From contig NZ_CP011409.1 of NCBI RefSeq assembly GCF_001267925.1, positions 1,984,001 to 2,048,000 on the forward strand: 64,000 nucleotides of DNA, written 5' to 3'. The notes under the pieces were generated by a model that had not been told where the DNA came from, searched no databases, and worked only from the letters and a program-made list of their open reading frames with translations. Below are positions 17,366 to 38,339 of this stretch, piece after piece. The first letter of the stretch is position 1. Each line of letters begins with the position of its first letter. This DNA comes from Herbaspirillum hiltneri N3. Its GTDB lineage: Bacteria; Pseudomonadota; Gammaproteobacteria; Burkholderiales; Burkholderiaceae_D. The position numbers were made by a program, and so were the translations under genes.

Positions 17366-17989
17366 CTAGCGGTCGGCCCGGTAGGCTTCGGCTTCCTCGA
17401 AATGGCGCGTCCAGTTGGCGACGTACTTTGCCGCCAGCGGCAGATTCTTGCGCGCGATCAGGATGTTCTCGGCATTCTTGTTTTGCGCCGACCAGGTGAA
17501 ATTATAGCTACCGGTGATCACGGTGGCGTCGGCGCCGGCGGCATCGATGACGATGACCTTGTTGTGCGCACTCTTGTATCTGGTCTCTTCACGCACCGTA
17601 ACGCCGGCGGCAAGCATGGCGGCGATACGTTCGTGTCCGAGCTTGTTGAGCTGGCCGGCATCGACCAGCACACGCACGTCGACGCCGCGCTTGCGGGCGG
17701 CGATGAGCGAGCTGGTGAGCGGCTTGCTGGTCAGGATGTAGGCTTGCACCAGCACTTGCCGGCGCGCCTTGTCGACGGCATCGGTCAGCAGACCTTCGAT
17801 GTCGTCGCCCGGCGTGAAAGCGGCCTCCAGCGTTCCCTGCGCCGGCAGCGCCGGCCCGCCGGCGACGAAGGCATGCGCGGCAGGAACACCCGCGCAGGCG
17901 ATCAAGGCGAACGTGGCGAACGCGACGACATGGCTTGCATGCCGCCGCATACCGGACAGACAGGACAGCATGGTCCGCAAACCCGGCAT
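17366..17989 (-). CDS. Secreted phospholipase D-like (Nuc-type) protein
   Basis: A 207-residue protein with an N-terminal signal peptide (cleavage near AHA, residue 40) and a single phospholipase D domain. The HKD motif is present as HNKVIVID followed by TGSYNFTWSA, the pattern of the Nuc endonuclease subgroup, which works as a homodimer. It may be a periplasmic nuclease or lipase. Its ATG overlaps the stop of the upstream chimeric methyltransferase gene by one base (TAATG), indicating translational coupling, and this explains the choice of start. No second HKD motif is present, as normal for this subgroup. Confidence 0.88.
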   Translation of the reverse strand: MPGLRTMLSCLSGMRRHASHVVAFATFALIACAGVPAAHAFVAGGPALPAQGTLEAAFTPGDDIEGLLTDAVDKARRQVLVQAYILTSKPLTSSLIAARKRGVDVRVLVDAGQLNKLGHERIAAMLAAGVTVREETRYKSAHNKVIVIDAAGADATVITGSYNFTWSAQNKNAENILIARKNLPLAAKYVANWTRHFEEAEAYRADR

Positions 17990-19089
17990 TACTTCTTGCG
18001 TTCCAGTACAGCCGCGAAGAAGCCGTCGGTGTGATGCACGTGCGGCAGCATCTTGAGGTACTCGCCGGTGTCCAGATCGATCTTCTGTTCGGCCAGCACC
18101 GTGTTCATCGGCACCAGCGTGAAGTCCGGATTGGCTTGCAGAAACTCGGTGACGATGTCTTCGTTTTCTTCATTGAGGAAACTGCAGGTGCCATAGACCA
18201 GGCGACCGCCGGCTTTGACCAGGCGCGCCGCACTGGTGAGGATGCTGATCTGCTTGACGTTCATTTCGGCCACGGTCTCGACGGTCTGGCGCCATTTCAT
18301 GTCGGGATTGCGGCGCAGCGTGCCGAGGCCGCTGCAAGGCGCGTCGACCAGCACCCGATCGATCTTGCCGGCCAGGCGCTTGACCTTGGCGTCGTTCTCG
18401 TGGGCGATCATGACCGGATGCACATTGGACAGGCCGCTGCGCGCCAGACGCGGCTTGAGCTTGGCCAAACGCTTTTCCGATATGTCGAAGGCGTACAGGC
18501 GACCGGTGTTGCGCATGGCGGCGCCCAATGCCAGCGTCTTGCCGCCCGCACCGGCGCAGAAATCTACCACCATCTCGCCGCGCTTGACGCCGACGATCTG
18601 GGCCAGCAACTGGCTGCCTTCATCCTGCACTTCGATGGCGCCGTCTTTGAACAGCGGCAGGTTCTGCAGCGCCGGTTTCTTGATCACGCGCAGGCCCAGC
18701 GGCGAATACGGGGTCGCTTCGCAGAGGATGGGCGCTGCCGCCAGCGCAGCCATGACGTCTTCGCGGTTGGCCTTGATGGCGTTGACGCGCAAGTCCAGCG
18801 GCGCAGGCTGGTTCAATGCCGCGGCCAGTTCCATGGCGGCGGCTTCGCCGTCGCGGGCGATCAGCTTGTCGAGCAGCCATGGCGGCATGTTGGCGCGCAT
18901 CGCCAGCGGCAGCTTGTTGCGGTCGATCTGCGCGGTACGGGTAAGCCATTCGACTTCTTCCGGCGACAGGCCGGCGATCGACTCGATGCTGACGGTGTCG
19001 ATCAGGCCGTACACGGTGACGTTGCTTTGCGCCGCTGCCGCACCGCTCACGGCCGTCAGGATGGCTGCTGCCAGTAATTTCTTTTGCAC
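17989..19089 (-). CDS. Chimeric ORF: porin signal peptide fused to N-terminally truncated RsmB/NOP2-family RNA methyltransferase
   Basis: Residues 1-32 (MQKKLLAAAILTAVSGAAAA, then QSNVTVYGLIDT) are the signal peptide and first strand of a Gram-negative porin. From about residue 35 the sequence is an RsmB/NOP2/Sun-family methyltransferase, with SAM motif DFCAGAGGKT at 176-185 and the two family cysteines in DAPCSGLG (Cys252) and YGTCS (Cys302). Family members usually have about 100 more N-terminal residues, which are missing here. The start is a GTG with AAGGAG upstream, a porin-like leader. As encoded, the methyltransferase would be sent to the periplasm, where it could not modify RNA, unless translation restarts inside. 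Most likely a deletion or rearrangement scar. The catalytic core itself looks intact. Confidence 0.85.
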   Translation of the reverse strand: MQKKLLAAAILTAVSGAAAAQSNVTVYGLIDTVSIESIAGLSPEEVEWLTRTAQIDRNKLPLAMRANMPPWLLDKLIARDGEAAAMELAAALNQPAPLDLRVNAIKANREDVMAALAAAPILCEATPYSPLGLRVIKKPALQNLPLFKDGAIEVQDEGSQLLAQIVGVKRGEMVVDFCAGAGGKTLALGAAMRNTGRLYAFDISEKRLAKLKPRLARSGLSNVHPVMIAHENDAKVKRLAGKIDRVLVDAPCSGLGTLRRNPDMKWRQTVETVAEMNVKQISILTSAARLVKAGGRLVYGTCSFLNEENEDIVTEFLQANPDFTLVPMNTVLAEQKIDLDTGEYLKMLPHVHHTDGFFAAVLERKK

Positions 19090-19136
19090 TCTGGTTTCTC
19101 CTTGGTAAAAATCGTTTTTATGGTTGTCGCGTTGCT

Positions 19137-19283
19137 CTGAACCTGCTCACGATCTGTAGCGAGAGGCCATCAGCCGGTGGCGGCCGGAGCGCAGGAACCG
19201 GAATGTGCTTGAGCACATGAAGATTCCGAGCACCGCCCGACGCCGGGTCATGGCCTCGCAGTAAGATCATGAGCAGGTTCTCA
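19137..19283. repeat. MITE- or REP-like element with long imperfect terminal inverted repeats
   Basis: An intergenic element of about 147 bases. Its ends, GAACCTGCTCA at 19,139-19,149 and TGAGCAGGTTC at 19,270-19,280, are exact complements, and imperfect pairing extends inward for about 31 bases on each side, to GGCCAT/ATGGCC. The centre holds a near-perfect palindrome, TGTGCT-TG-AGCACA, flanked by GGAA/TTCC. There is no ORF inside. One end abuts the stop codon of the ABC ATPase gene; the other lies 48 bases before the porin-like start. It looks like a dispersed repeat, but only one copy is in the window. Confidence 0.65.
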
Positions 19284-20360
19284 GAAGGCCCACAGCGCCT
19301 GTTCCGGCAATGTGAGCCAGTACTCGCCCTGCTCCAGCTTGTGCGGCGCGTAGGCGCGCAAGCCGACTGTCGTGCTGTCCGCGCTCGTGGCTTTGAACAG
19401 GCACTCCCACCGATCTCCCAGGTACATGCACGTGGAAAGCGGCAGGCGAATGGCGTTGTCGGTCTGGTGGTCGGCGATGCGGACTTGTTCGAGGCGGATG
19501 ATGCCGATGGCCTCGTTGCCGGTATTGCCGCCGCGTGCGCTGGCGACCACGGTGCCGCCTTCGACCTGCAAGGTGACGCGCTGGCCGTCGCGCTGCAGCA
19601 CCTTGCCCTTGAGACGATTGTTGCTGCCCATGAACTCCGCCGTGAACAAGGTGTCGGGCGTCTGGTACATGCTCTGCGGCGTACCCTGCTGTTCGATCTT
19701 GCCGTTGTTGAGCAGCAGGATGCGATCCGAAATCGCCATCGCCTCGCCCTGATCGTGGGTGACCATCAACGCCGACAAACCGAGCCGCACGATCAGTTCG
19801 CGCAGGAAAGCGCGCGCTTCTTCGCGCAGCTTGGCGTCGAGATTGGACAGCGGCTCGTCAAGCAGAATGACCTGCGGGTTGTAGACCAGCGCACGCGCAA
19901 TCGCGACGCGCTGCTGCTGGCCGCCGGAGAGCTGGTGCGGGAAACGTTCGCCGAGATGGCCGAGGCCGAGTTGCGACAGCACGGTCTTGACGCGTTCTGC
20001 AATCTCCGTGCCGCCCATCCTGCGCAGCTTGAGACCGTAGGCGACGTTGTCGAACACGGTCTTGTGCGGCCACAGCGCGTACGACTGGAACACCAGTCCG
20101 AGGTTGCGTTCCTCGGCCGGCATTTCATAATTGCGCGCGCCGTCGAACACCCGGCGCTCGGCGATATCGATGGTGCCGGCCTTGGGCGACTCCAGCCCGG
20201 CGACGGCGCGCAGCAGCGTGGTCTTGCCGCTGCCCGAAGGGCCCAGCAAGGCAACCACTTCGCCGCGCTGCAATTGCATGGAGACGCCCTTGAGAATCGG
20301 ATTGGCGCCGGCGCCGCTGCCGTAGTCGAGGTGGAGGTCGTTGACGGTGAGTTCTGACAT
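19281..20360 (-). CDS. Ferric/spermidine-type ABC transporter ATPase
   Basis: A 359-residue ATPase of the FbpC/PotA type that powers an importer. Walker [10 protein letters not shown] is at 40-48, signature LSGGQQQR near 143 and Walker [15 protein letters not shown]-terminal TOBE-like regulatory domain follows [10 protein letters not shown]. The ATG at 20360 is the start expected from alignment with family members. It is the last gene of an operon reading Bug receptor, binding protein, permease, ATPase. The substrate may be iron, a phosphonate or another small anion; the family is broad. Confidence 0.9.
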
Positions 20361-20431
20361 GATGATTCCTTTGATTGCCGGCCGCGACGCTCTTGCCGCG
20401 GCCTCGTGTAGTGAATGACGGAGCCGATGAG

Positions 20432-22240
20432 TTAGTCGTGCAGCTTGATGCCGAAGCGCAGGGCGATGCCGAGGCCGATGGCCACCAGCGTGATGTTGAT
20501 GAAGGACAGCGCCGCCACCAGCTCCACCGCGCCTGCCGCCCACATCGAAACGATCATCGAACCGATCACTTCGGTGCCCGGCGACAGCAGGTAGACGCCG
20601 GTCGAGTACTCGCGCTCGAAGATCAGGAACACCATCAGCCATGCGCCCAGCAGACCGTACTTCACCAGCGGCAGCGTGACGTCGCGCGTGACCTGGCCAC
20701 GTTGCGCGCCGACCGCGCGCGCCGCCTCTTCCAGTTCAGGACCGACCTGGAGCAAGGCCGTCGTGATCAGGCGCAGGCCGTAGGCCATCCACACCACCGA
20801 ATACGCCAGCCATACCGAGAAGATGGTTGAGCGCAGCGATCGCAACTGCGGGATGAAACTGTCGACCAGCCAGCGTGCGACGTCGTTATCGAAGCCTTTG
20901 AGGAAGTTATCCAGCAACGACGGTACGAACAGGAATACCCACAGGAAGGACAGGCCGGCCAGCAAGCCCGGCACCGCACGCGGCACCAGCACGCTGTAGT
21001 CGAGGAAGCGCGTGACGCCGTCGTTCTTGCGATGCATCGCCAGCGCAATCGCGCTGTAGCACACCACTGCGAACGCGCCGCCGATGACACCGATCAACAC
21101 CGTGTTGACGATGCCGCGCACCAGCGAAGGCTGGCTCCAGACGTCGCGGAAGTTTTGCAGCGTGAGCACTTCCATCAACCTGACGCCGTCGCCCCAGTGC
21201 GACACAAAGGTGCGCAAGGCGATGCCCGACAGCGGCACGACCACGGTGAACAGCAGCCAGAAAGCGATCAGCGTGAACGCGATCCAGCGCCACTTGCCGA
21301 GCGGCAGCGCTTTCTGGCGCGCACCCTTGCCCTTGATCGAAACGTACTTGTTGGCAGACTTCAGCAGCCACCGCTGCAACATCACCAGCGGCATCGTCAC
21401 CGCCACCAGGCAGACCGCAACCGCCGCCATCAGGTGATACGAGGGCGTGCCGAGCTTGTTGGTCAGCTTGTAGAGATAGGTTGCCAGCACCAGGTGGCCT
21501 TCCGGATCGCCGAGCACCAGCACCAGGCCGAACACTTCGAACCCGAGGAAGAACACCAGTACGCCCGAATACGCCAGCGCCGGCATGATCATCGGCAGCG
21601 ACACGTTGAGCGCGACTTGCAGCGGCGATGCGCCGGCGACACGCGCGGCCTCCTCGACATCCGAACCGAGACTCTTCAGCGCCGCCGACGCGTACAGGTA
21701 AACGTGCGGCACGTGCGTCAGGCCGGCGATGACGACGATGGCCGGGAAGGAATACACATTCCACGGGTCGCCTTCAAAACCGACCACCGACAGCAGGTTG
21801 CGCACCCACACCGTATAGAACCCGACCGGCCCCATTGACACCACGTAGCCGAAGGCGATCACCATCGGCGAGACGAAGATCGGCACCAGCAGCATCGGCG
21901 CAATCCAGGCGCGTCCCGGCAGATCGGTGCGTACCATCAGGAAGGCCAGCATGCCGCCCAGCGGCACGGCGATCAGCGCCAGCCCGGAGGCGAGATAGAA
22001 GCCATTGACGAAGGCCTGGCGAAAATCCGGGTCGTCAAAGATGAAACGATACGAATCCAGCGTCAGCGTCTTGACCGGCGCGAAGAACGGCGCCGACAAG
22101 AAGCTTTGGTAAAAAATCAGCAGCAGCGGCACGAAGATGGCCAGCGACGCCAGCGCGACCACGACGCCGCGTGGCCAGTTCAGGCGGAACCGGGCGCGCC
22201 GTATCGGCAAGGCGCCGGGAGTGGAAGAAAGTGTTTGCAT
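20432..22240 (-). CDS. Fused two-domain ABC transporter permease (FbpB type)
   Basis: A 602-residue inner-membrane protein made of two homologous permease halves of about six membrane segments each. Both carry the coupling-loop EAA motif: EEAARVAGASPLQVALNVSLPM in the first half and EEAARAVGAQRGQVTRDVTLPL in the second. Such fused permeases are typical of ferric iron and related importers. The ATG at 22240 with AGG upstream was chosen; the open frame extends further upstream but is low-quality. It lies 71 bases before the ATPase gene and 182 after the binding protein gene, with hairpins in the gap. Confidence 0.92.
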   Translation of the reverse strand: MQTLSSTPGALPIRRARFRLNWPRGVVVALASLAIFVPLLLIFYQSFLSAPFFAPVKTLTLDSYRFIFDDPDFRQAFVNGFYLASGLALIAVPLGGMLAFLMVRTDLPGRAWIAPMLLVPIFVSPMVIAFGYVVSMGPVGFYTVWVRNLLSVVGFEGDPWNVYSFPAIVVIAGLTHVPHVYLYASAALKSLGSDVEEAARVAGASPLQVALNVSLPMIMPALAYSGVLVFFLGFEVFGLVLVLGDPEGHLVLATYLYKLTNKLGTPSYHLMAAVAVCLVAVTMPLVMLQRWLLKSANKYVSIKGKGARQKALPLGKWRWIAFTLIAFWLLFTVVVPLSGIALRTFVSHWGDGVRLMEVLTLQNFRDVWSQPSLVRGIVNTVLIGVIGGAFAVVCYSAIALAMHRKNDGVTRFLDYSVLVPRAVPGLLAGLSFLWVFLFVPSLLDNFLKGFDNDVARWLVDSFIPQLRSLRSTIFSVWLAYSVVWMAYGLRLITTALLQVGPELEEAARAVGAQRGQVTRDVTLPLVKYGLLGAWLMVFLIFEREYSTGVYLLSPGTEVIGSMIVSMWAAGAVELVAALSFINITLVAIGLGIALRFGIKLHD

Positions 22241-22319
22241 GGGAACCTGCCGTTTCTGGTGATGAAGCCGCCCGTGTCCCCCGGCATCTCGAAAATTCAG
22301 ACAAGCCGGGGGCCTGGGA

Positions 22320-22395
22320 GGCGCAACAGTTGCGCCGCCCATGACGGGTATTACGTGAGAAATGTTGCTGAAAGGCCGCCCGGCTGCACGCCGGG
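22320..22395 (-). repeat. Two intergenic hairpins between binding protein and permease genes
   Basis: CCCGGC-5-GCCGGG at 22,379-22,395 lies directly after the binding protein stop, and GGCGCAAC-A-GTTGCGCC at 22,320-22,336 follows it. Neither has a U-tract, so they are better seen as mRNA stabilisers that keep binding protein in excess of permease than as terminators. Confidence 0.55.
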
Positions 22396-22422
22396 TTGAT
22401 CAGGACCTGTCGCTGCCGGCGT

Positions 22423-23517
22423 TTACTTCTTGCCGGCCGCGTCCTTCCATTGCTTGAGGAAGGCCAGGCGCTTGGTCTGGTCCAGGTATTCCAGCAAGTC
22501 GGTGTTGACCGGCATCGGCTTCAGGGCGGCGCCGAGTTGTTTCGTCAGTTCAGCCGAGGTGGTCGAGCCGACGACGTCGCCGCGGATCGCGAACAGTTGT
22601 GCGTCATTGGCGATGATGGTCTGGCCGCGCTTGGACAGAATGTAGTCCAGCCACAGCTTGCCGGCGTTGATGTTCTTGGCCGACTTGTTGATGAAGATCA
22701 CGCGCGACAGCACCAGGTTGTAGTCCTTGGTGAAGGAGATGCCGATCGACGGGTCCTTCTTGGCCCGGGTCAATGCATAGGGACCCAGGATGTTGTAGCC
22801 GATCAGGTTTTCGCCCGACGAGATGCGTTCGAGCATGGTACCGGTGGAGGACTGCACGCGCACCGCCACGCCGCCGAGCGCTTTGGCGAAGTCCCAGAAT
22901 TGCGGATTGAGCTTCAGGTCATGCGTAATCAGGCTGAAACCGACGCCGGATTTTTCGATGTCGTAGGTGGTGACCTTGTTCTTGTATTTGTCGAGTTTGG
23001 TGGTCAGCAGCCTGGTGAAGTCGGCGTGCGTGGCCGGCACTTCGGCCTCCGGCACCAGACGCTTGTTGTAGACGATGGCAGTGGGCTCGAAGGTGGTGCC
23101 GTAGGCGGTGTCCTTCCAGTTGGCCCAGGCCGGGACGGCAGCGGCTTCCGGCGACTTGTAGGCCAGGCCGTAACCTTCCGACGCCAGCTTCATCTGCAGG
23201 TCCATCGACGACGACCACATCACGTCGGCGGTCGCGCCGCCGGCGGCGGCTTCGGAGATGAAGCGGTTATAGACCTCAGTGGAATTCATGTCGTTGTACT
23301 CCACCTTCACGGCCGGATACAGCGCGCTGAAATCCCGGATCAGCGCTTCGGCCGCCTTGGAATCAGTGGTGCTGTAGACCACGACCTTGCCCTCCTTCTT
23401 CGCCGCCTCGACTACCTTGGCGTAATCAGCCGAATAGCCAGACGGACTCTGCGCCAATGCGCTTAAGGACAAACCGGCCAGCGCCAGTGCGATCGTGATG
23501 CGGCGTTTTACGAACAT
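22423..23517 (-). CDS. Periplasmic binding protein of a ferric-type ABC importer
   Basis: A 364-residue secreted receptor. The signal peptide ends after SALAQS, and the mature part belongs to the type 2 periplasmic binding fold of the AfuA/FbpA/PhnS group. Visible blocks are EGKVVVYSTTDSKAAEALIRDF, AADVMWSSSMD-like (ATADVMWSSSMDLQ), YGTTFEPTAIVYNKRL and NINAGKLWLDYILSKRGQ. It captures the solute for the downstream permease and ATPase. The gene follows the Bug receptor gene by 42 bases on the same strand. Confidence 0.9.
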   Translation of the reverse strand: MFVKRRITIALALAGLSLSALAQSPSGYSADYAKVVEAAKKEGKVVVYSTTDSKAAEALIRDFSALYPAVKVEYNDMNSTEVYNRFISEAAAGGATADVMWSSSMDLQMKLASEGYGLAYKSPEAAAVPAWANWKDTAYGTTFEPTAIVYNKRLVPEAEVPATHADFTRLLTTKLDKYKNKVTTYDIEKSGVGFSLITHDLKLNPQFWDFAKALGGVAVRVQSSTGTMLERISSGENLIGYNILGPYALTRAKKDPSIGISFTKDYNLVLSRVIFINKSAKNINAGKLWLDYILSKRGQTIIANDAQLFAIRGDVVGSTTSAELTKQLGAALKPMPVNTDLLEYLDQTKRLAFLKQWKDAAGKK

Positions 23518-23559
23518 GCGAAATCTCCTCTTCAGTTATTCAGAAGCAAGACGGAGCGG

Positions 23560-24546
23560 TCATCTGACCAACCCCAGTTCCTGCGATTGCTTGCGATATT
23601 GCTCAACCACCTTGCGGACGTAGTCGGTCAGCGGCGCGCCGGTCATGGCGAATGGATAGAGTCCGGCGGTCGCGCGCTGGCGCTTGAATTCGTCGGTCGC
23701 CATGGTGCGGTCGAACACCGCCACCCAGCGCTGATAGTCGGCGTCGCTGACATGGGCGCTCATGTAGAAGCCGCGAATGATCGGCCACACCACATCGAAA
23801 CCTTGCTCGCGCGCGGTCGGTACCTCTGCCAGCACACCCGGCAGGCGTTGCTCGGACAACACCGCCAGCACGCGAAATTTCCCATCCTTGGCAGACGAAG
23901 CCGCTTCCGAAGCGTCGCCTGAAATCACCTGCACGTGATTCGCCTGCAGGGCGGTGAATGAATCGCCGCCGCCTTCCAGCGCGACGAAGCGGAAGTTGCG
24001 CGGATCGACGCCGGCGCGGCGCGCGATCATCGCCACCTTGAGCCAGTCCTGGCTGCCGACCGTACCGCTGACGCCAACAGTGATCTTGCCCGGCTCGCTG
24101 CGCATGGCGTCGATCAGCTCGCGCAGGTTCTTGTATGGTGCGTCGCTGCGCACGGCGATCATGCCGTAGTCGACGCCGACGCCGGCCAGCCAGCGCACGT
24201 CGGATACGGCGGCCTTGCCATACTTTCCTTGCGCCAGGTTGAGCAGCGAACCGCCCGAAAACGTCACCAACGTGTCGGCGCCGCCGCGGCGCTGCGACAC
24301 CACCGAACTCCATGCCACCGCACCGATGCCGCCGGGCAGGTAACTGATCTTGACCGGCGCGTCCTCTGTGGCCAGCGGCAAGGCTTTGCGGATCATCCTG
24401 CAAGCGCCGTCCATTCCGCCGCCGGGCTTGGCCGGCACGATGCATTCCACCGCACGCGCCGCCTGCGCCGCCGGCGCATGCAGTCCGGCAGCGCCGATGA
24501 ACAAGGCGCACGCCGTCAACAGATGACGCCGGATGAACGAGTTCAT
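23560..24546 (-). CDS. Bug-family (TctC-like) tripartite tricarboxylate-type solute receptor
   Basis: A 328-residue periplasmic receptor. A signal peptide (ending near PAAQAA) is followed by a Bug fold: VECIVPAKPGGGMD at the first strand, a later VGVSGTVGSQDWLKVAM and SAHVSDADYQRWVAVF near the end. Bug proteins normally serve TctAB permeases, but none is present here. Instead it heads an operon with a ferric-type ABC importer and is divergent from tctD. In other bacteria some Bug proteins act as ligand sensors for TctE-like kinases. The start at 24546 has no clear ribosome binding site; a 37-codon ORF ending 8 bases upstream may couple to it. Confidence 0.85.
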   Translation of the reverse strand: MNSFIRRHLLTACALFIGAAGLHAPAAQAARAVECIVPAKPGGGMDGACRMIRKALPLATEDAPVKISYLPGGIGAVAWSSVVSQRRGGADTLVTFSGGSLLNLAQGKYGKAAVSDVRWLAGVGVDYGMIAVRSDAPYKNLRELIDAMRSEPGKITVGVSGTVGSQDWLKVAMIARRAGVDPRNFRFVALEGGGDSFTALQANHVQVISGDASEAASSAKDGKFRVLAVLSEQRLPGVLAEVPTAREQGFDVVWPIIRGFYMSAHVSDADYQRWVAVFDRTMATDEFKRQRATAGLYPFAMTGAPLTDYVRKVVEQYRKQSQELGLVR

Positions 24547-24944
24547 GACAGCCGTCAGACGTCGTGCGAAATGGCAGCCACGCGGTGCAGCGAATACGGG
24601 AAAGTACTTTTGCCGGCAGCACGAAAACAAGTACAAAAATAAGTGCGCAAACAAGTGCGATGGCTCATGCCGTGTCTCCGATGTCTGGTTATTATTATTT
24701 TTGATTTGACTATGTGGGCGGATGCTACGCGGCCAAACTTTCATTCGGCTTTCAGTGTTGTTAAAGCTTTGCACCACCGGCTGCAAAGCCGCTATTGCAA
24801 AGGCCGCGCTTCTGTTAGCATCCGCAACTATCCGTTGCATCGCAGCGCCGGCCGGGCTGATTTTTTTCATGCGGGTCTCCTTGTTGCACTGCACTGCGAT
24901 TTCATGTGTTTCCGTCATTTCGCTTCTCATTCGGTATCTGCATC
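24547..24944. promoter_or_regulatory. Divergent intergenic region between the Bug receptor gene and tctD
   Basis: About 400 bases that must hold promoters for both directions. Besides the 37-codon ORF, there is an isolated strong start signal at 24,870 on the minus strand (AAGGAG, then ATGAAAAAAATC). It is in frame with the Bug gene and would add 108 residues without obvious function. This may be the remnant of a lost gene. I could not identify a convincing promoter or operator here. Confidence 0.4.
24555..24668 (-). CDS. Possible 37-residue leader ORF before the Bug receptor gene
   Basis: Starts at ATG 24668 with GGAG seven bases upstream and stops 8 bases before the Bug start, in a different frame. 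The peptide contains several Cys and Thr codons and near-repeats of ACTTGTTT in its DNA. Since the receptor gene itself lacks a good ribosome binding site, translational coupling is plausible. No homologous peptide is recognised. Confidence 0.3.
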   Translation of the reverse strand: MSHRTCLRTYFCTCFRAAGKSTFPYSLHRVAAISHDV

Positions 24945-25622
24945 ATGCGCATTCTATTGGTTGAAGATCATGTCGAACTTTCCCGCTGGATTTCCAAGGC
25001 GCTGCAGGATGCGCACCTGACCGTCGAATGCGCCAACAACGGCGATGACGCCGACAGCCTGCTGCTGACGCAGGAGTACGCGCTGGTCATCCTCGACCTG
25101 ACGCTGCCGAAGATGGATGGCCTCGATGTGCTGAAGCGCCTGCGCGCACGCGGCAGCCGCACGCCGGTGCTGATCCTGACCGCGCGCGGCGGGCTCAACG
25201 ACCGCGTCAACGGCCTCAATCTCGGCGCCGACGACTACCTCGCCAAACCCTTCGAGCTGGTGGAACTGGAAGCGCGTGTGAAGGCGCTGCTGCGACGCGC
25301 TCAAGGAAATGAAGCGGTCACTATCCAGTGCGGCGCATTGAGCTTCGACACGGTGTCGCGCATGTTCACCTATGGCGGCGCGATGCTGGCGCTGACACCG
25401 CGTGAACACGCCGTGCTGGAGACGCTGATCACGCGCGCCGGCCGCACCGTCGCCAAGGAGAAACTGTTCCAGGAAGTGTTCTCGCTGGACGACAACGCCA
25501 ACGTCGACGCCATCGAAATCTATATCCATCGCGTGCGCAAGAAACTCGACGCCGTCGATGAAGGCCGAGTATCCATCACCACCTTGCGCGGCCTCGGTTA
25601 CCTGCTGCAAGCGGCCGGATGA
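24945..25622 (+). CDS. tctD: TctD-type response regulator (OmpR family)
   Basis: A 225-residue transcription factor. The receiver domain starts MRILLVEDHVELSR with the phosphoacceptor Asp51 in ILDLTLPKMDG and the conserved lysine in YLAKPFE near residue 101. An OmpR-type winged helix follows (LTPREHAVLETLITRAGRTVAKEKL to RGLGYLL). In TctD-TctE systems it activates tricarboxylate or related uptake genes, here presumably the divergent Bug/ABC operon. It overlaps the following sensor gene by four bases (ATGA). That sensor is truncated, so the regulator is probably without its kinase. Confidence 0.93.
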   Translation: MRILLVEDHVELSRWISKALQDAHLTVECANNGDDADSLLLTQEYALVILDLTLPKMDGLDVLKRLRARGSRTPVLILTARGGLNDRVNGLNLGADDYLAKPFELVELEARVKALLRRAQGNEAVTIQCGALSFDTVSRMFTYGGAMLALTPREHAVLETLITRAGRTVAKEKLFQEVFSLDDNANVDAIEIYIHRVRKKLDAVDEGRVSITTLRGLGYLLQAAG

Positions 25623-26284: not shown

Positions 26285-26386
26285 CACGCGATTGCGGCGA
26301 TAGCCGACTGCCGCGTCAAGGGTTCTTCTTTAGGATGGTCGCATGCGCCTTGCATTTGCCTGGCGCTCACAACCAAGGAGACCGTC

Positions 26387-30730: not shown

Positions 30731-30758
30731 GACTCCCTGCGCGTTTTTTGAGCATTTG
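30717..30758 (+). terminator. Rho-independent terminator overlapping the DUF2242 stop codon
   Basis: GGAGTCC and GGACTCC pair around the stop codon region at 30,718-30,736 and are followed, after CTGCGCG, by TTTTTT. Translation termination and transcription termination are therefore very close. Confidence 0.75.
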
Positions 30759-30832
30759 CCTGATTTTGAGGCGAGCTAGAACATTTCAATAAAATCAACG
30801 ACTTGCCGACTTTGTACAAACTTGCTCACATG

Positions 30833-30857
30833 GTTACCCACAGTTTCTGTGGGTAAC
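30833..30857. repeat. Perfect 11-base inverted repeat GTTACCCACAG with 3-base loop
   Basis: GTTACCCACAG at 30,833-30,843 is followed by TTT and its exact complement at 30,847-30,857. It sits between two converging genes without a U-tract. Each arm differs by one base from a DnaA box (TTATCCACA). A third copy of the 11-mer is at 33,751. Confidence 0.6.
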
Positions 30858-30880
30858 TGCGAGTAATTCGGCGAGCCGGT

Positions 30881-31213
30881 TTAGCGGCGGTAGCCGTGGC
30901 GATCATAATAGCCGTGACCGTAATAGCGTGGACCATGGCGGTAGTAACCGGGACCGTAGCGGTAGTACCCGCCGCGCTCAACATAAATCGGCGCAGGCGC
31001 GTAGTAGACCGGTGCGGGGCGGACATAAACCGGTGGCGGCGGCACATATACCGGTGCGGGCGCGTAGTAGACCGGCGGTGGGGGCGGTGCATAGACCGGC
31101 ACGCCGATGTTGATGCCCACGCCGACATGGGTAGCCATCGCCGGCGTCGCGAACAGGCTCGCGGCGAGCACGCCGACAGAAATGACTGTCACGGAAAGAA
31201 GAGATTTTTTCAC
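30881..31213 (-). CDS. Secreted Pro/Tyr-rich protein
   Basis: A 110-residue secreted protein. The signal peptide ends at AMA near residue 27. The mature part has repeated blocks of YAPAPVYVPPPPVYVRPAP type and a tail rich in Tyr, Gly, His and Arg. Such proteins are common in betaproteobacteria but have no assigned role; they may be cell-envelope or extracellular components. It begins just after a ribosome binding site AAGGAG. Confidence 0.7.
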   Translation of the reverse strand: MKKSLLSVTVISVGVLAASLFATPAMATHVGVGINIGVPVYAPPPPPVYYAPAPVYVPPPPVYVRPAPVYYAPAPIYVERGGYYRYGPGYYRHGPRYYGHGYYDRHGYRR

Positions 31214-31377
31214 GATGGCTCCTTGGAAGTGCCTAAAGGTACTAATACTTTGCTGAGAAATAAGACGTTGAATCCTTAGCTGTATTTAAATCCAATTCGA
31301 GACCGGATACCAGTCAGTTGACGGTAAGCCTTGTAACAAGATGCAACAAATTCCTGACGTGGTTTGACACCTGCAAT

Positions 31378-31416
31378 AAAAAAGCGGGCCTCGCTTCAAC
31401 GAGGCCCGCTTTGTTT
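31378..31416 (-). terminator. Rho-independent terminator of ribH
   Basis: AAAGCGGGCCTCG pairs with CGAGGCCCGCTTT around a 5-base loop, just after the ribH stop. On the minus strand it ends in a T-run. Confidence 0.9.
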
Positions 31417-31428
31417 TCACCCCCTGCC

Positions 31429-31938
31429 TCAGGCGGCGTTCAATACGGCCACGCTACCCTGCCCTGCTTCGATGCGGGCAAGTTTGGTCACGGTATCGGC
31501 GCAGGCCCGCGCCACTTCCTGGCCCTTGACCACGAAATGCTCATGGAAGAACTGCTGATGCTCGCCGTGCGAATGGAAATGATGCGGCGTCAGCACTGCC
31601 GAGAACACCGGCACTTCGGTGTCGAGCTGCACGTTCATCAGCGACGTGATCACCGCTTGCGCGACGAAGTCGTGACGATAGATGCCGCCGTCAACCACCA
31701 GGCCGGCGGCGACGATGCCGACGTATTTGCCGGTCTTGGCCAGCAGCTTGGCGTGCAACGGGATCTCAAAGGCGCCGGGCAATTCGAAGAAGTCGATGCC
31801 GGATTCGGCGAAACCGAGTTTGGCGATCTCTGCAGTGAAGGAGATGCGGCACTGGTCGACGATCTCCTTGTGCCAGCTGGCCTGGATGAAGGCGATGCGT
31901 TTTTTGGCTGGCGAGGTATTGCTGGATGGATGTTGCAT
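31429..31938 (-). CDS. ribH: 6,7-dimethyl-8-ribityllumazine synthase, type II
   Basis: RibH condenses 5-amino-6-ribitylaminouracil with 3,4-dihydroxy-2-butanone 4-phosphate in the penultimate step of riboflavin synthesis. The 169-residue protein has FIQASWHKEIVDQC, FELPGAFEIPL and VVDGGIYRHDFVAQAV, the latter replacing the usual GGTPHFEYV block, as in type II (RibH2) enzymes. The HHFHSHGEHQQFFHEHF segment also fits that type. The ATG at 31938 has AGGAG upstream inside a small palindrome. An FMN riboswitch precedes it, so it is controlled by flavin level. It stands apart from any other rib gene in the window. Confidence 0.94.
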   Translation of the reverse strand: MQHPSSNTSPAKKRIAFIQASWHKEIVDQCRISFTAEIAKLGFAESGIDFFELPGAFEIPLHAKLLAKTGKYVGIVAAGLVVDGGIYRHDFVAQAVITSLMNVQLDTEVPVFSAVLTPHHFHSHGEHQQFFHEHFVVKGQEVARACADTVTKLARIEAGQGSVAVLNAA

Positions 31939-32025
31939 TTGTTCAGGACTCCTGTTTGTCAAATAAAAACAGGGCGCATGAAAACCGGCGAGCGCATACG
32001 AAATGCATGCGCGCGACAGGTTTTC
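31939..32025 (-). promoter_or_regulatory. Expression platform between FMN riboswitch and ribH
   Basis: It contains a hairpin (GCGCATGC and GTATGCGC around ATTTC) and, at the ribosome binding site, the palindrome CAGGAGTCCTG, which can hide AGGAG. No hairpin with an immediate U-tract was found, so control at translation initiation is more likely than termination, though a T-run follows at 31,965-31,970. Confidence 0.5.
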
Positions 32026-32191
32026 GTTCTCTTTCATCCGGACTATGACCGTCGGCCCCGGGATCACACCGGGTCTGCTGACCTTGACGGACGGGCGTCC
32101 GCCAAGCGCTCGCGGGCTCGCTGCAATGACGCCGGAAACGACGTCGCCACAGCATTACCGCCGGTGGGGAATTCCACCCCGCCCCGAGAAC
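32026..32191 (-). ncRNA. FMN riboswitch (RFN element) upstream of ribH
   Basis: On the minus strand the element starts with TTCTCGGGGCGGGGTGGAAT, continues with CCCCACCGGCGGTAAT and AGCCCGCGAGCG, has the paired GACCCGGTGTGATCCCGGGG-type stem and closes with GGTCATAGTCCGGATGAAAG. These are the conserved RFN blocks in order. FMN binding should lower ribH expression. Confidence 0.96.
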
Positions 32192-32286
32192 ATTGCGGTC
32201 GAAAAATGTCGCATCAGATACGATTTTTTCGCCACGCAGGAATTTATCATGGCTGAAAAAAAACTGCTGGCGGCCTCTCGGTTTCC

Positions 32287-33171
32287 TTATGCAACGGCCC
32301 GGCCTTGCAGCGAGGCGATCCGCGATTCGATCGGCGGATGGCTGGAGAACAAACCCATCCACGAACCGCGGCCGGCGATGCCGGAAGCCTGCAGGTTTTG
32401 CGGCAGGCCGTCCGCTTCCATGCCGCCGAGGCGACGCAAGGCGCCGATCATCGGCGTCGGCGAACCCATCAGCTTGGCGGCGCCGGAGTCGGCGCGGTAT
32501 TCACGCTGGCGCGAGAAGTACATGACGATGATGCTGGCGAGGATACCGAAAACGATCTCGCACACAACAACCGTGACCATGTAGCCGATGCCGGGACCCG
32601 ACGATTGTTCGTTGTTGCGGCGCAAGGCCGAATCGACGAAGTAGCCGACGATGCGCGCGAAGAACATCACGAAGGTGTTCACCACGCCCTGGATCAATGT
32701 CAGCGTGACCATGTCGCCGTTGGCGATGTGCGCGACTTCATGCGCCAGCACGGCTTCCACTTCTTCCCTAGTCATGCCTTGCAGCAGCCCGGTCGACACC
32801 GCCACCAGCGAATTGCTTTTGCTGGCGCCGGTGGCGAAGGCGTTGGGCGGACCGTCGTAGACGGCGACTTCAGGCATCGTCAGGCCGGCACGCGTGGCGA
32901 GGCGATTGACGGTGTCGACCAGCCACATTTCGGTGGAGTTTTGCGGATGTTCGATGACGCGCGCACCGGTCGACCATTTGGCGATGGTCTTGGACAGCAG
33001 CAGCGAGATGAACGAGCCGCCAAAACCCATCAGCGCACAGAACATCAGCAGCATGCCGAAGTTGAGGCCGTTGGCGGTCATGTAGCGGTTGATGCCGAGG
33101 ATGCTGGCGGTGACGCTCAGCACCAGCATCACTGCCAGGTTGGTGACGAGGAAAAGAATGACGCGTTTCAT
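32287..33171 (-). CDS. htpX: Membrane zinc metalloprotease HtpX
   Basis: HtpX is an inner-membrane M48 protease that degrades misfolded membrane proteins. The 294-residue product has two N-terminal membrane segments, the zinc motif HEVAH at 144-148, two further hydrophobic segments, the third ligand in [13 protein letters not shown], and the [13 protein letters not shown] end. It has the normal length. Often heat-shock regulated; no sigma-32 promoter was identified here. Confidence 0.96.
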
Positions 33172-33280
33172 GATGCTTCCTATGCAAAGAGGGCGCGACC
33201 GTCCCAGGACGATCGTCGCAGAAAAAACAAATTCGGATAAAAGGATGGCGCCGCGTCACGACGCAGACGCAGGCAGGAGA

Positions 33281-33658
33281 TCAGACGGCCGGAGGCGGCC
33301 GCAGCAAATCGATGAACGCGGACGTGCCGCCGCTCACGCGGGGATACAGATGGGGAAAAGGTTGCCAGTCCAGCGGCAAGGTGGCCACAGGCACCGGCAG
33401 CGTCTGGTCTTCCAGGTCGGCTTGCACCTTCCGGGGATCAGAGTCGGCGCCGGCTTCGTCATCGGCCGCCTGCGCACTTGCCGGCGTATCCGCATTGTCC
33501 GGATCGGAAGCCGGGTCAGAAGCGCTGTCCGTCGCACCAAAAACAATCACGATCGCCTGGTCCGCTGTTGCGGCGGAGTTCGCCATAGGCTCAAGCGCCC
33601 CCGCAAACAATTGCAAGGGAAACAGGAATGCCAGCAACAAAAAACAGAATCGGCGCAT
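33281..33658 (-). CDS. Small secreted hypothetical protein
   Basis: A 125-residue protein with a good signal peptide (MRRFCFLLLAFLFPLQLFAG) and a mature part rich in Ala, Asp and Ser, ending YPRVSGGTSAFIDLLRPPPAV. The open frame extends upstream, but the Met at 33658 gives the correct signal peptide. No family is recognised. It lies about 110 bases upstream of htpX on the same strand. Confidence 0.55.
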   Translation of the reverse strand: MRRFCFLLLAFLFPLQLFAGALEPMANSAATADQAIVIVFGATDSASDPASDPDNADTPASAQAADDEAGADSDPRKVQADLEDQTLPVPVATLPLDWQPFPHLYPRVSGGTSAFIDLLRPPPAV

Positions 33659-33750
33659 GGGCGAGGCAATAAGGACCACTGGGTGGCGTTGAAACACAGG
33701 GGACAACAAGGGTCGCAAGGGCCGCATTATACGCAAAAGCCGCCAGCCAA

Positions 33751-33800
33751 GTTACCCACAGAAAATGTGGCCAACCCTGTTGATAACTTGTTTATGACCG
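33751..33800. repeat. DnaA-box-like motif cluster
   Basis: GTTACCCACAG at 33,751-33,761, then AATGTGG and CTGTTGATAACTTG at about 33,778-33,791, resemble DnaA boxes in both orientations within 40 bases. It is the third copy of the 11-mer seen at 30,833. No dnaA, dnaN or other origin gene is near. Confidence 0.3.
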
Positions 33801-33849
33801 CGCGCAAGCCGCATGGGTTCAAGCTTTCGCGCGATTGAGCAGGAATTGC

Positions 33850-34794
33850 TCAGGAAGCGCTCTGTATCCGGTTGCGGCCATGCTTTTTGGCGCGGTACAA
33901 GGCGCTGTCGGCGATCCTGAGCAAGGTCTTGCCCTCGCTGCCCTGGTCCGGGGTCATGGTGCAGACGCCGACACTGATGGTCATATGCTCCTGCACCGAG
34001 GATTTCGCATGCGCGATGGCGAGGTCATTGACGCTGGTGCGCAGCCGCTCGGCAAAACGTTCCGCCTGCTCTTCGGTAAATCCCGGAATCAGCATCACGA
34101 ATTCTTCGCCGCCGTAGCGCGCACAGATATCGGTGGGCCTGCGCATCTGCGCGCGCAGGGTGTTGGCGACAAGTTGCAGTGCCTTGTCGCCTTCAACGTG
34201 GCCGTAGTGGTCGTTGTATTGCTTGAAGTAATCGATGTCGATCATGAACAGCGACAGCGGTGTGCGGTTCCTGACGGCGTTGGCCCATTCCACTTCCAGC
34301 GCCGAATCGAACATGCGGCGGTTGGCGACGTTGGTGAGGCCGTCGCGGTAGGACAGCGCTTCCAGTTCTTTCTGCAGCTCCGCCAGGCGCGCTTCGTTCT
34401 TCTTGCGCTCGGTGATGTCGAACATGAAGCCGATCAGCGCTTCCACTTCGCCGTCCGGTTTGCGCACCACGTGCACCACGTCGCGAATCCAGACATGTTC
34501 GCCGTCCCGCGTGATGGCGCGGTAGTCGGCTTCGTGGTCGACGCCGGCCTTCGACTGCGCCACGCAAAAATTCACCACGCCTTCACGATCTTCTGCATGG
34601 ATGCGCATGGCCCAGTCTTCCACCGACACCCAGCTCTCAGGGGCCCAGCCCAGCAGCGCTTCGATCTGCGGACCGACGTAGGCAAACTTCATGGTGGCCC
34701 AGTCGATTTTCCAGGGGATTGCCTTGGTCGATTCAAGGAGGGTTTTGTAGACGGCGCTGTCGGGTTCCATTTGCTTTGGTGCTTGTCTGGTCAT
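33850..34794 (-). CDS. PAS-domain diguanylate cyclase
   Basis: A 314-residue cytoplasmic signalling enzyme that makes cyclic di-GMP. A PAS domain (residues 15-130, ending FDITERKKNE) is joined by a short coiled linker to a GGDEF domain starting LSYRDGLTNVANRRMF. The active-site motif is GGEEF at 228-232, so the enzyme should be active. The product-inhibition I-site RPTD lies exactly five residues before it (219-222). No membrane segment is present. I use the ATG at 34794, although the ribosome binding site is weak. Confidence 0.92.
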   Translation of the reverse strand: MTRQAPKQMEPDSAVYKTLLESTKAIPWKIDWATMKFAYVGPQIEALLGWAPESWVSVEDWAMRIHAEDREGVVNFCVAQSKAGVDHEADYRAITRDGEHVWIRDVVHVVRKPDGEVEALIGFMFDITERKKNEARLAELQKELEALSYRDGLTNVANRRMFDSALEVEWANAVRNRTPLSLFMIDIDYFKQYNDHYGHVEGDKALQLVANTLRAQMRRPTDICARYGGEEFVMLIPGFTEEQAERFAERLRTSVNDLAIAHAKSSVQEHMTISVGVCTMTPDQGSEGKTLLRIADSALYRAKKHGRNRIQSAS

Positions 34795-35145
34795 GTGGAC
34801 GTCGGGGTGAGTTGGGCGTGACGAGCCGGGGTGTGATCCGGCCCGCCGTTGGCGGAAAGGAAATTGTCGTAAGAATAACCCGGGGTGTCGGGGGACGCAT
34901 GAAAACGCGTTGAAAAATGATCGGCAGGTTCGGTGGCCCGTGCGCCGAGGCCCGCAGGGCGCGGAGTTGAGGGCGGTTTCATGCTTGTTGAAAAGTGATA
35001 GCAATCGTCAATTGATTTAAAACATTTAATCAATTGTGCAAAAGACTTTCGTCTGATTTATCTTTCAGGACATGACTTGCAGAAAGATTCGACGTTGCCC
35101 GAGCAGCGCACTCGCCCCTCAACTCATCAAACAGGAACGCAGCAC

Positions 35146-36309
35146 ATGTCTTCGAATGCCTCCACCATCAGCTCGCCCGCCGCACCACAACAAGACTCAG
35201 CAATTTTTCGCGCACTCGCCGAGATGCTCGGCCACGGCGGTATCCGCATCAACGGCAATAATCCCTGGGATATCCAGCTGCATCGCGCCGGCGTGCCCGA
35301 ACGCGCCTTTGCGCAAGCCAACCTCGGCCTCGGTGAGGCATACATGGATGGCGACTGGGACGCCGAACAGCTGGACGAATTTTTCTCGCGGCTGTTGCGC
35401 ACGCGACTGACCGACAACATCAAGCCCCTGCGGCTGGTAGGTCACGTGCTGGCCGCGAAATTCATGAATCGCCAGAACCTCAAACGCTCGCGCATGGTCG
35501 GCGAAATGCACTATGACCTCGGCAACGATTTCTACGCGGCGATGCTCGATTCGCGCATGACCTACACCTGTGGCTACTGGAACACCGCAACCACGCTGGA
35601 AGAAGCGCAGGAAGCCAAGCTCGACCTGATTTGCCGCAAGCTGAAACTGAAGCCCGGCATGCGCGTGCTCGATATCGGCTGCGGCTGGGGCAGCTTCATG
35701 GCTTTTGCCGCCGAGCGCTACGGCATTGAAGCGGTGGGAGTGAGCATTTCCAAGGAACAGATCGCGCTGGCGAAAGAGCGTCACGGGCACCTGCCGCTCG
35801 ACTTCCGCCTGCAGGACTACCGCGAACTCAACGAACGCTTCGACGCCATCGTCAGCATCGGCATGTTCGAACATGTGGGCCGTCGCAACTACCGCACCTA
35901 CATGGAAGTCGCGCATCGCTGCCTGGCCGACGACGGCCTGTTCCTGCTGCACACCATCGGCAAGAACCAGCGCAAGTCCTCGCCCGATCCATGGATCGAC
36001 AAATACATTTTCCCCAATGGCGATCTGCCGTCCATCGGTCAGATGGGCGACGCCTTCGATCATCTGTTCGTGGTGGAGGATCTGCACAACTTCGGCGCCG
36101 ACTACGACAAGACGCTGATGGCCTGGCACAGCAATTTCGAAGCGGCGTGGCCGCGTTTCGAGGCGCAACTGGGGGCGCGTTTCCGCCGCATGTGGCGTTA
36201 TTACCTGCTGTCCTGCGCCGGGGCATTCCGCGCACGCGACATCCAGCTGTGGCAGTGGGTGTTGTCGAAGAAGGGCGTGATGGGCGGTTATCGGCGCGAG
36301 CGCATCTGA
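35146..36309 (+). CDS. cfa: Cyclopropane-fatty-acyl-phospholipid synthase
   Basis: Cfa adds a methylene group from S-adenosylmethionine across double bonds of membrane lipids, a stress adaptation that complements the desaturase at 14.7 kb. The 387-residue protein has the SAM motif VLDIGCGWGSFMAFAAERYG, MFEHVGRRNYRTYM with the catalytic glutamate/histidine region, and WIDKYIFPNGDLPS. The ATG at 35146 has AGGA nine bases upstream. It converges on the sirtuin gene with four bases between the stops. Confidence 0.95.
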   Translation: MSSNASTISSPAAPQQDSAIFRALAEMLGHGGIRINGNNPWDIQLHRAGVPERAFAQANLGLGEAYMDGDWDAEQLDEFFSRLLRTRLTDNIKPLRLVGHVLAAKFMNRQNLKRSRMVGEMHYDLGNDFYAAMLDSRMTYTCGYWNTATTLEEAQEAKLDLICRKLKLKPGMRVLDIGCGWGSFMAFAAERYGIEAVGVSISKEQIALAKERHGHLPLDFRLQDYRELNERFDAIVSIGMFEHVGRRNYRTYMEVAHRCLADDGLFLLHTIGKNQRKSSPDPWIDKYIFPNGDLPSIGQMGDAFDHLFVVEDLHNFGADYDKTLMAWHSNFEAAWPRFEAQLGARFRRMWRYYLLSCAGAFRARDIQLWQWVLSKKGVMGGYRRERI

Positions 36310-36313
36310 GGTC

Positions 36314-37162
36314 CTAAGCCTGTGCTGACCCCAGGCGATCCGCCAGCAAAGGCAGCAGCAACTCCGCTGCCTCCTCGGATTTGATCGCCAGCAAAGGATC
36401 GGCGCGCGTGACGCCGCGGTTGATGGCGGCGATCGGTTTTCCGGCTTCTGCAGCCATGCGGCAAAAACGGTATCCCGAAAACACCACCAGCGACGACCCC
36501 ACCACCAGCACCGCATCGGCCGCCGCCACCGCGCGCTCGGCCGCTTCGCTGCGCGCACGCGGCACGCCGTCGCCGAAAAACACCACGTCGGGTTGCAGCA
36601 TGCCGCCGCACACCGGGCAAGGCGGCACATGGAAGCCGGCCAGGGCGGCCGTTTCCAGATCTGCATCGCCGTCGGGCAGGGCCGCCGCATCGCTGGCGGC
36701 CAGTTCGGGATTGGCGAGTTCCAGCAAGTCCTGCACGCTGCGGCGCGTATGCGTGGCGCCGCAATCGAGGCAGACCACGCGATGGATGTTGCCGTGCAAT
36801 TCGATGACGTCGCTGCTGCCGGCCTGCTGGTGCAGGCCGTCGACGTTTTGCGTGAGGATGGTGGAGATCTTGCCTGCAATTTCCAGCGCCGCCAATGCGC
36901 GGTGGCCGGCGTTTGGCGTTGTTCCCGCCAGCTTGGGCCAGCCGATCATGCTGCGCGCCCAATAACGCCGGCGCATCGCTTCCGAACTGCGGAAGGCCGG
37001 ACCTTCCATCGGCGCCTTGCCGCGCCGCACGCCGTTGGCGTCGCGATAATCGGGAATGCCGGAGGCCGTGCTGATGCCGGCGCCGCTCAGGACCAGTACA
37101 CGGCGATGCGGCGCGATGAACGCGGCCAGCGCGTCCACGTCCGCGAAGAGATGGTCTTCCAA
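36314..37162 (-). CDS. Sir2-family NAD-dependent deacylase
   Basis: A 282-residue sirtuin. NAD-binding motifs GAGIST (27-32) and IPDYR (36-40), the TQNVDGLHQQAG block, catalytic His123 in ELHGNIHR, and four zinc cysteines (131, 134, 182, 185) are all present. PDVVFFGDGVP follows the second pair. It would remove acyl groups from lysines using NAD. The start is TTG at 37162 with a weak ribosome binding site, 13 bases after the stop of a small membrane-protein gene, so translational coupling is likely. Confidence 0.92.
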   Translation of the reverse strand: MEDHLFADVDALAAFIAPHRRVLVLSGAGISTASGIPDYRDANGVRRGKAPMEGPAFRSSEAMRRRYWARSMIGWPKLAGTTPNAGHRALAALEIAGKISTILTQNVDGLHQQAGSSDVIELHGNIHRVVCLDCGATHTRRSVQDLLELANPELAASDAAALPDGDADLETAALAGFHVPPCPVCGGMLQPDVVFFGDGVPRARSEAAERAVAAADAVLVVGSSLVVFSGYRFCRMAAEAGKPIAAINRGVTRADPLLAIKSEEAAELLLPLLADRLGSAQA

Positions 37163-37175
37163 GAAAGTCCCGGTC

Positions 37176-37331
37176 TTAAACCCGGTCCATGCCCGCGGTC
37201 ACGATGAAGGACACCAGCGCGGCCGTGATCGACCAGACGGCCAGGCGATATTGCGGGATGAACTTGGTGATGACCGGCAGCAGGAAGTAGAGGACGACGC
37301 CGATGAGGATGCAGGTGATGACTCGTTTCAT
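37176..37331 (-). CDS. 51-residue two-span membrane protein upstream of the sirtuin gene
   Basis: A short ORF with two hydrophobic helices (VITCILIGVVLYFLLPVIT and AVWSITAALVSFIVTAG) separated by a short polar loop (KFIPQYRL). The ATG is at 37331 and the TAA at 37,176-37,178, directly before the TTG of the sirtuin gene. The regular reading frame and close coupling argue for a true gene. Function unknown. Confidence 0.65.
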   Translation of the reverse strand: MKRVITCILIGVVLYFLLPVITKFIPQYRLAVWSITAALVSFIVTAGMDRV

Positions 37332-37662
37332 GACTTGATCTTGTTGATGTTGATGAAGATGCCCGCCGGTTCAGCGACGGCGACGTTGAGATCCTATCAT
37401 TGATTGACGGCAATGGCAGCCCGGGCTTCCCCAAGCGGACAAGCGCAGACAGGTGCGGGCAGGGGCATATTTAAAACTTATACCCCTATCGACAATCCGT
37501 ATTTCCTTGATCTTGTCTTAAGAGAATAGACTTCAGTCACAGCAGTTTCGGAGGACGGATTGTTGTGAAGGCCGCTACCACGGCCGCTTTGTCTGGCAGT
37601 AACGCATCGTACCCGGTGCAGTAACGGCAGGCGATATCTGAATAACCATTTTGGAGACGTAC
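37332..37662. other. Intergenic region between the sirtuin unit and the indolepyruvate oxidoreductase fragment
   Basis: About 330 bases that should hold divergent promoters. The repeat CAGTAACG occurs twice near 37,600-37,630. Nothing else could be identified. Confidence 0.4.
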
Positions 37663-38169
37663 ATGGAATACCGTTCGGCAGCCGAGCCTGTTGAATTGTC
37701 AGCCCCTGACCGGTCGGGGCGGGCAGTGCAAAAGGTAGCAACCACAGCAGAAAATTCAGCAGCAACTTCAGCATCCACTCCCGTCTCGGGGGCTGCACCG
37801 CTCGCGACGGTCAGTCTCGACGACAAATACACCGCAACTTCGGGTTCGATCTTTTTGTCCGGCATCCAGGCGCTGGTGCGCTTGCCGCTGCTGCAGTATC
37901 TGCGCGACCAGAAAGCCGGGCTCAACACCGCGGGCTTCATTTCCGGCTATCGCGGCTCGCCGCTGGGCGGACTCGACGAAGCCCTCTGGAAGGCGCAGCC
38001 GCATCTCGACGCGCACAAGATCAGGTTCCAGCCCGGCACCAATGAAGACATGGCGGCCACCGCCGTGAACGTCGGCTCCGGTTGCCGGAAGGCGCCGATG
38101 GCAAGCCGCGGAATGGCGCTCTCCAACTGTTTTTCGTCGGCGTGGCGCAGCACCCGGCGGCACATCTGA
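37663..38169 (+). pseudogene. N-terminal fragment of indolepyruvate ferredoxin oxidoreductase
   Basis: Begins at ATG 37663 with GGAG six bases upstream. Residues 52-135 (LDDKYTATSGSIFLSGIQALVRLP through GLNTAGFISGYRGSPLGG and FQPGTNEDMAATAV) are the start of the fused, roughly 1200-residue indolepyruvate oxidoreductase of betaproteobacteria, an enzyme of aromatic amino acid breakdown. After residue 135 homology ends, and the remaining 33 codons read antisense through a truncated AraC-type gene. More than 85 percent of the protein is missing, so it cannot be functional. Confidence 0.85.
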
Positions 38170-38186
38170 TCCAGTAAATCTTTCAT
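38068..38186 (-). pseudogene. N-terminal fragment of an AraC-family regulator
   Basis: Reading from ATG 38186 on the minus strand, about 40 codons (MKDLLDQMCRRVLRHADEKQ and SAIPRLAIGAFRQPEPTF) resemble the start of AraC regulators that sit divergently from short-chain dehydrogenase genes. The sequence then runs into the antisense strand of the indolepyruvate oxidoreductase fragment. The rest of the sensor domain and the helix-turn-helix domain are missing. The divergent SDR gene supports the assignment, which rests on a short stretch. Confidence 0.55.
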
Positions 38187-38339
38187 GAAACCAGTGTGGC
38201 ACGACTTGGAGGTGAGATCAATGAAATGAGCGGATCAGGCAAGAATCTGCGCAGTTTTGGCGAGCGAGCAGGGGGTCGGGAGCGTATCTTGGGCAAGACG
38301 GGCGCGGTCATTGCGCACTTAACTTCACGGGAGAAAATC

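Follow-up and report, generated by a model that had tools for sequence, protein, structure and literature searches.

Exact copies of distant loci border gene fusions in the published Herbaspirillum hiltneri N3 sequence and very probably reflect genome finishing

The stretch of DNA analysed here (the window, 64,000 nucleotides) covers positions 1,984,001-2,048,000 of C1, the single 4,965,474-bp contig of the Herbaspirillum hiltneri N3 assembly (G000; CP011409). Within it, parts of unrelated genes are joined to each other at several places. A preliminary description of the window reported three such junctions within 20 kb and offered two explanations, loss of DNA by illegitimate recombination or an error of assembly. 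The three junctions are present in the deposited sequence, about 2 bp from the places first given, with exact borders at 18,993, 26,092 and 38,066. Each of them is a border of one of two copied blocks, B (18993..26092) and D (34252..38066), which lie between three segments that we call A (11276..19009), C (26078..34257) and E (38052..48522). The fourth border, absent from that description, is at 34,252, inside an open reading frame (ORF) at 33850-35004 in which two PAS-GGDEF (diguanylate cyclase) genes are fused in frame. As had been described, the frame stays open at two of the three junctions, in ORFs 17989-19089 (minus strand) and 25619-26284 (plus strand); at the third (38,066) the ORF continues for about 34 residues beyond the border, to a stop at 38,169.

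We searched the window against its own genome in pieces (1-18,992, 26,000-38,200, 38,067-54,000 and 47,000-64,000), scoring the best 40 candidates per genome, so that weak copies may escape. The nearest relatives are Herbaspirillum species, and two genomes of the same genus served for comparison, one complete (G005) and one fragmented (G006). At 18,993 the start of a porin is fused to RsmB from about profile position 129 on, which bears out the description of a fusion between unrelated genes. Across the junction at 26,092 a sensor-kinase N-terminal domain (2CSK_N) runs into sequence that is collinear with contig C260 of G006; the aromatic hydroxylase named at this place was not confirmed, the 63 residues past the border matching no Pfam family. 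At 38,066 an indolepyruvate ferredoxin oxidoreductase breaks off after its first part (profile positions 9-102) and unrelated sequence follows.

Block B is 7,100 bp long, shows 0 differences from C1:634,620-627,521 and is foreign to its surroundings on both sides in the window. It carries the 5' end of a porin gene, genes for an ABC ATPase, a permease, two binding proteins and a response regulator, and the 5' part of a kinase gene. The source locus, together with both of its outer neighbours, is collinear with G005 587,841-595,320; this placement, like that of the source of D, comes from 17 probes inside and outside the blocks that were placed in G005 and G006 in one query. The ORFs at the two borders of the source are long and apparently intact, one of 505 amino acids with kinase matches and one of 372 amino acids with a porin match. 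By the porin gene, at window positions 19139-19285, lies a repeat of about 140 bp that reads like an intergenic palindromic repeat, with more than 20 further matches at 68-97% identity on both strands.

Block D (3,815 bp) reproduces C1:2,731,604-2,735,418 without a difference and is likewise foreign on both sides in the window. It contains part of a PAS-GGDEF gene, a CMAS-type methyltransferase gene, a SIR2-family gene and the first part of the indolepyruvate oxidoreductase gene. Its source, again with both outer neighbours, is collinear with G005 2,370,696-2,378,557, and at the source border stands a 1,232-amino-acid indolepyruvate ferredoxin oxidoreductase that scores 1,721 bits, far above the family cut-off (952). 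The porin and aromatic amino-acid oxidation genes, which had been thought removed from the genome, are thus both present at the source loci. Each probe from B and D was placed once at high score in G005, and the two blocks are no known repeats. The eight longer ORFs of B and D, searched against protein families, gave only transporter, regulator and enzyme domains and no transposase or integrase; the earlier statement that no insertion sequence accompanies the junctions agrees with this result. Insertion of a transposon or insertion sequence was rejected on the same ground, no transposase being found among the eight ORFs. Deletion scars were rejected too, since at both sites a copied block stands between the segments, which are not joined directly.

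The segments between the blocks belong to different places in the relatives. Segment A is collinear with G005 4,067,125-4,074,885 and ends inside rsmB. Segment C, which includes a gene for an M48 peptidase that we take to be htpX, matches contig C260 of G006 from 26,078 to 28,862 and G005 3,678,915-3,686,363 from 27,081 to 34,257, where it ends inside a GGDEF gene; its left end is placed by G006 only and found no match in G005. Segment E, compared with the relatives up to 48,522, is collinear with contig C250 of G006 and, up to 46,838, with G005 3,764,081-3,755,001 in reverse. In G005, A, C and E thus lie at 4.07, 3.68 and 3.76 Mb (E on the other strand); segments that are about 380 kb apart there are here placed together.

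In G005, segment A continues through rsmB into genes for PurN, barstar, a ribonuclease and a patatin, beyond which come genes for a short-chain dehydrogenase and an H+-pyrophosphatase. Of this DNA, the 3,335 bases that begin after G005 4,075,000 (L057:1-3335) had no match in the N3 assembly (best 40 of 185 candidates). The barstar and ribonuclease genes (Pfam), between purN and the patatin gene at L057:841-1679, accordingly had no match there either. Beyond L057:3335, the G005 DNA matches C1:1,787,500-1,776,066, on the other strand and 215 kb away, and this segment meets another copied block of 7.1 kb at 1,787,471. Of the 19 genomes searched for PurN, 18 scored above the cut-off; the N3 assembly did not, giving three weaker matches only. 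In all 11 relatives of the same genus in that search, no more than about 1 kb separates purN from rsmB. The RsmB fusion protein of the window (P0001) was recorded on one contig, of 4,965,474 bases, among the best 120 of 7,998 rows (7,999 best candidates were scored). The next 22 rows, at 93-96% identity, comprise 20 proteins of 418 amino acids and two of 390 and 404 amino acids, the latter on contigs shorter than 2 kb.

The joints themselves seem to carry short overlaps. At A|B (18993..19009) an overlap of at most 17 bp is deduced between the porin copy and native rsmB, G005 being identical at 14 of 17 positions. At B|C (26078..26092) the overlap would be about 15 bp, with contig C260 of G006 identical at 11 of 15, and at D|E (38052..38066) again about 15 bp, with 12 of 15 positions identical in G005 and 11 of 15 in G006. 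These end overlaps are inferred from relatives because the native ends of N3 itself are absent from the assembly. The native sequence of the relatives aligns about 17, 15 and 15 bases beyond the borders; each of these three joints therefore probably sits on a short stretch shared by chance between two unrelated loci. Joint C|D (34093..34257) is of another kind, a crossover within paralogous GGDEF sequence: identity to the source is exact from 34,252, and similarity to it extends at lower identity to 34,093.

According to the genome announcement, the N3 sequence was produced from SOLiD and MiSeq data with several assemblers plus Phrap; H. seropedicae and H. lusitanum served as references for aligning the contigs, and the gaps were closed by FGAP (PMC4626616). 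The GFinisher paper adds that the N3 contigs were ordered by means of a mapping of more than 800 H. lusitanum contigs to H. seropedicae (PMC5056350). FGAP compares the ends of contigs by BLAST with alternative contigs and fills in the sequence between the matches (PMC4091766). According to a later paper, its defaults (raw score 25, 70% identity, 300-bp ends) appear too lenient, and it may use one sequence at several places (PMC6733440). In the literature searched, which was seen in part, lay mostly outside subscription journals and included PMC5596377, PMC8614823, PMC8547431 and PMC13273997, we found no report of errors in the N3 genome.

Taken with the sequence comparisons above, this history leads us to propose that the fusions are almost certainly a finishing artefact in the deposited N3 genome and not a product of the evolution of the organism. 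Contigs would have been ordered on the genomes of other species, and A, C and E laid next to each other with gaps between them; such ordering would explain why these segments stand side by side although they are no neighbours in a complete relative. A gap closer would then have looked for a contig of an alternative assembly that matched both contig ends, accepted chance matches of about 15-17 bp, or the paralogous GGDEF match, and inserted the 7.1 kb and 3.8 kb lying between them. A stretch pasted in this way would duplicate a native locus exactly, with each of its ends falling inside a gene, and would therefore leave chimeric ORFs at its edges. The signs of such an event are present: an exact copy elsewhere, a source in native order, an insert foreign on both sides, and a genome finished with FGAP. 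We think it probable, with less confidence, that the gap closer was FGAP itself; its part in making the joins and the settings used are deduced from the record. Of the two explanations first offered, it is the assembly error that gains support, from the exact pasted copies, the adjacency of distant segments, the absence of purN at the border and the documented leniency of gap closing.

How easily chance could provide such bridges was estimated by simulation on 321,495 bases of the N3 genome, with exact matches only, natural repeats included and linear scaling. Among 6,000 randomly drawn pairs of 300-bp ends, 239 found a bridge, with matches of 15 bp or more that stood no more than 8 kb apart, in the right order and on the right strand. 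The outcome depends strongly on the threshold, with 4,950, 1,590, 239 and 31 of the 6,000 pairs bridged at 13, 14, 15 and 16 bp. Scaled to the genome, this amounts to about 0.6 chance bridges for each pair of ends if 15 bp are required, and 0.08 if 16 bp are. With a closer that was satisfied with matches of about 15 bp, many gaps would thus receive kilobases of unrelated sequence, as is seen here.

False closure of this type resembles what has been reported for FGAP with lenient defaults, namely insertion on weak BLAST matches and reuse of one sequence (PMC6733440). The setting differs: there it was a mammal draft with long reads, and in N3 the fill would consist of alternative short-read contigs, in a bacterial genome that is called complete.

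Other parts of the genome hold comparable copies. Further stretches were chosen because their paralogue matches came as equal-scoring twins. Twelve paired rows were found; five were set aside as repeats, and seven were left, two of which are B and D. The preliminary description had reasoned that a scarcity of further junctions would speak against its reading; with five other long copied pairs found among the stretches examined, this check does not refute it. Because they were found through equal-scoring twins, these five are no unbiased sample, and we claim no genome-wide density from them. In the pair at 1,147,483 and 1,830,655, the 1,147-kb copy has a shortened LysR-type gene at one border and a pyruvate kinase end at the other, and the ORFs of its partner are longer. 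In the pair at 1,787,471 and 4,353,688, the GGDEF domain and the transporter gene are both whole in the partner, and the 1,787-kb copy has part of the transporter gene and no GGDEF match; this pair shows one single-base indel, 350 bases from its end. One copy of the pair at 1,023,801 and 3,418,855 has a shortened OppD-type gene at one of its borders; the other border lies in a short repeat. The pair at 1,969,203 and 4,343,247 gave no NCBIfam match, and one of its borders was assessed, from the length of the ORFs alone. Finally, the pair at 40,948 and 1,066,087 (6,244 bp, identical) is cut on one side in each copy and resembles overlapping contig ends placed apart. Nine copied pairs were compared base by base: two were without differences, and the others differ within a few hundred bases of their end or ends.

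Apart from B and D, the window has two near-exact matches in the genome, at 6,952-10,702 and over 61 bases at its start, and both belong to the repeats set aside. The 61 bases (window 1..61) are the last of a 1,331-bp repeat with two ORFs (C1:1,982,731-1,984,061 and 3,668,186-3,666,856), the 1.3-kb stretch of which (L141:1731-3000) reads like what we take to be an IS3-type element. The other is a transporter repeat (1,990,952-1,994,689 and 4,730,450-4,734,187; window 6952..10702) with ABC_tran in its left part, presumably an ABC-transporter cluster of the branched-chain amino-acid type. This cluster is two-copy in G005 too (4.063 and 5.008 Mb), and in N3 the flanks are exchanged between the copies, the left flank of one standing with the right flank of the other, by either a repeat mis-join or recombination. 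The remaining repeats set aside are short (1,023,801-1,023,948 and 1,111,702; 1,111,699 and 3,418,858; 1,153,216 and 1,967,161), with 148-604 bp at 95.9-98.6% identity. Two stretches of 604 bp from within a pyruvate kinase gene are 95.9% identical to each other (L129:12716-13319 and L138:6161-6764), and one of them directly adjoins a copied block.

Several points weigh against a finishing artefact made by the gap closer. Our evidence consists of the assembly sequence, the genomes of relatives and the literature, and the end overlaps are seen through relatives that match at 11-14 of 15-17 positions. The announcement (PMC4626616) does not give the settings with which FGAP was run on N3, and the criticism of its defaults (PMC6733440) is based on a large mammal draft with long reads. 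In its E. coli test, 94 of the 97 sequences inserted by FGAP agreed with the reference (PMC4091766), so the program is not generally so error-prone. The genome scores 99.99% complete with 1.53% contamination, figures that flag nothing. Moreover, the pair at 40.9 and 1,066 kb, cut on one side per copy, indicates more than one mechanism of mis-joining.

This last point bears on a variant of the artefact explanation, in which the error arose earlier, in the short-read assembler or when outputs were merged, and not in FGAP. Several assemblers and Phrap were indeed combined (PMC4626616), and the 40.9-kb and 1,066-kb pair, like the exchanged transporter flanks, resembles errors at contig overlaps or repeats. 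A repeat-mediated mis-join of short reads suits the transporter repeat at 6,952-10,702, with its exchanged flanks, unlike B and D, which are no known repeats. In both B and D a single stretch from another locus connects two foreign ends, as a contig-bridging closer would do, and by their ORFs and family matches the copies at 1,147 and 1,787 kb likewise bridge foreign ends. We therefore consider an earlier origin of the error a minor possibility, and false gap closure the better account of the two blocks.

Microhomology-mediated end joining with templated insertion leaves short overlaps at joints and copied DNA between them. Broken chromosome ends of N3 might thus have been healed by 4-7 kb copied from other loci, with loss of the intervening DNA, and the duplications would be real. 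The joints do seem to bear short overlaps and some of the fusions are in frame; such overlaps are, however, available by chance alone to a lenient gap closer. N3 would differ from this known process in inserting 4-7 kb, without divergence in the block interiors, from several unrelated sources and with ends of chance length. The same process would also have to put together segments that lie about 380 kb apart in G005, in a genome with no PurN above the cut-off. We regard templated insertion as very unlikely, and give about as little credit to the boldest form of this reading, in which the copies are real and the strain heals its breaks by 4-7 kb from unrelated loci, primed by 15-17 bp, and so acquires exact dispersed duplications and in-frame fusions at several sites. 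The decay of a lineage that sheds accessory genes by illegitimate recombination, the other explanation first offered, has next to no probability in our judgement: truncated genes exist, and purN and part of rsmB gave no match, but every site holds an inserted second copy in place of a bare deletion joint, the porin, kinase and indolepyruvate oxidoreductase genes are present at the source loci, and the missing DNA includes purN.

If finishing by false gap closure is the origin of these junctions, the consequences reach beyond the window. The N3 sequence is presented as complete, and the RsmB chimera P0001 sits in a protein collection. Inferences on gene order, gene loss (for example of purN), fusion or duplication near such blocks would be unsafe. 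For other genomes finished in this way, a quick test is at hand, namely the search for a long exact copy with a native source, foreign sequence on both sides and ends that overlap by about 15 bp.

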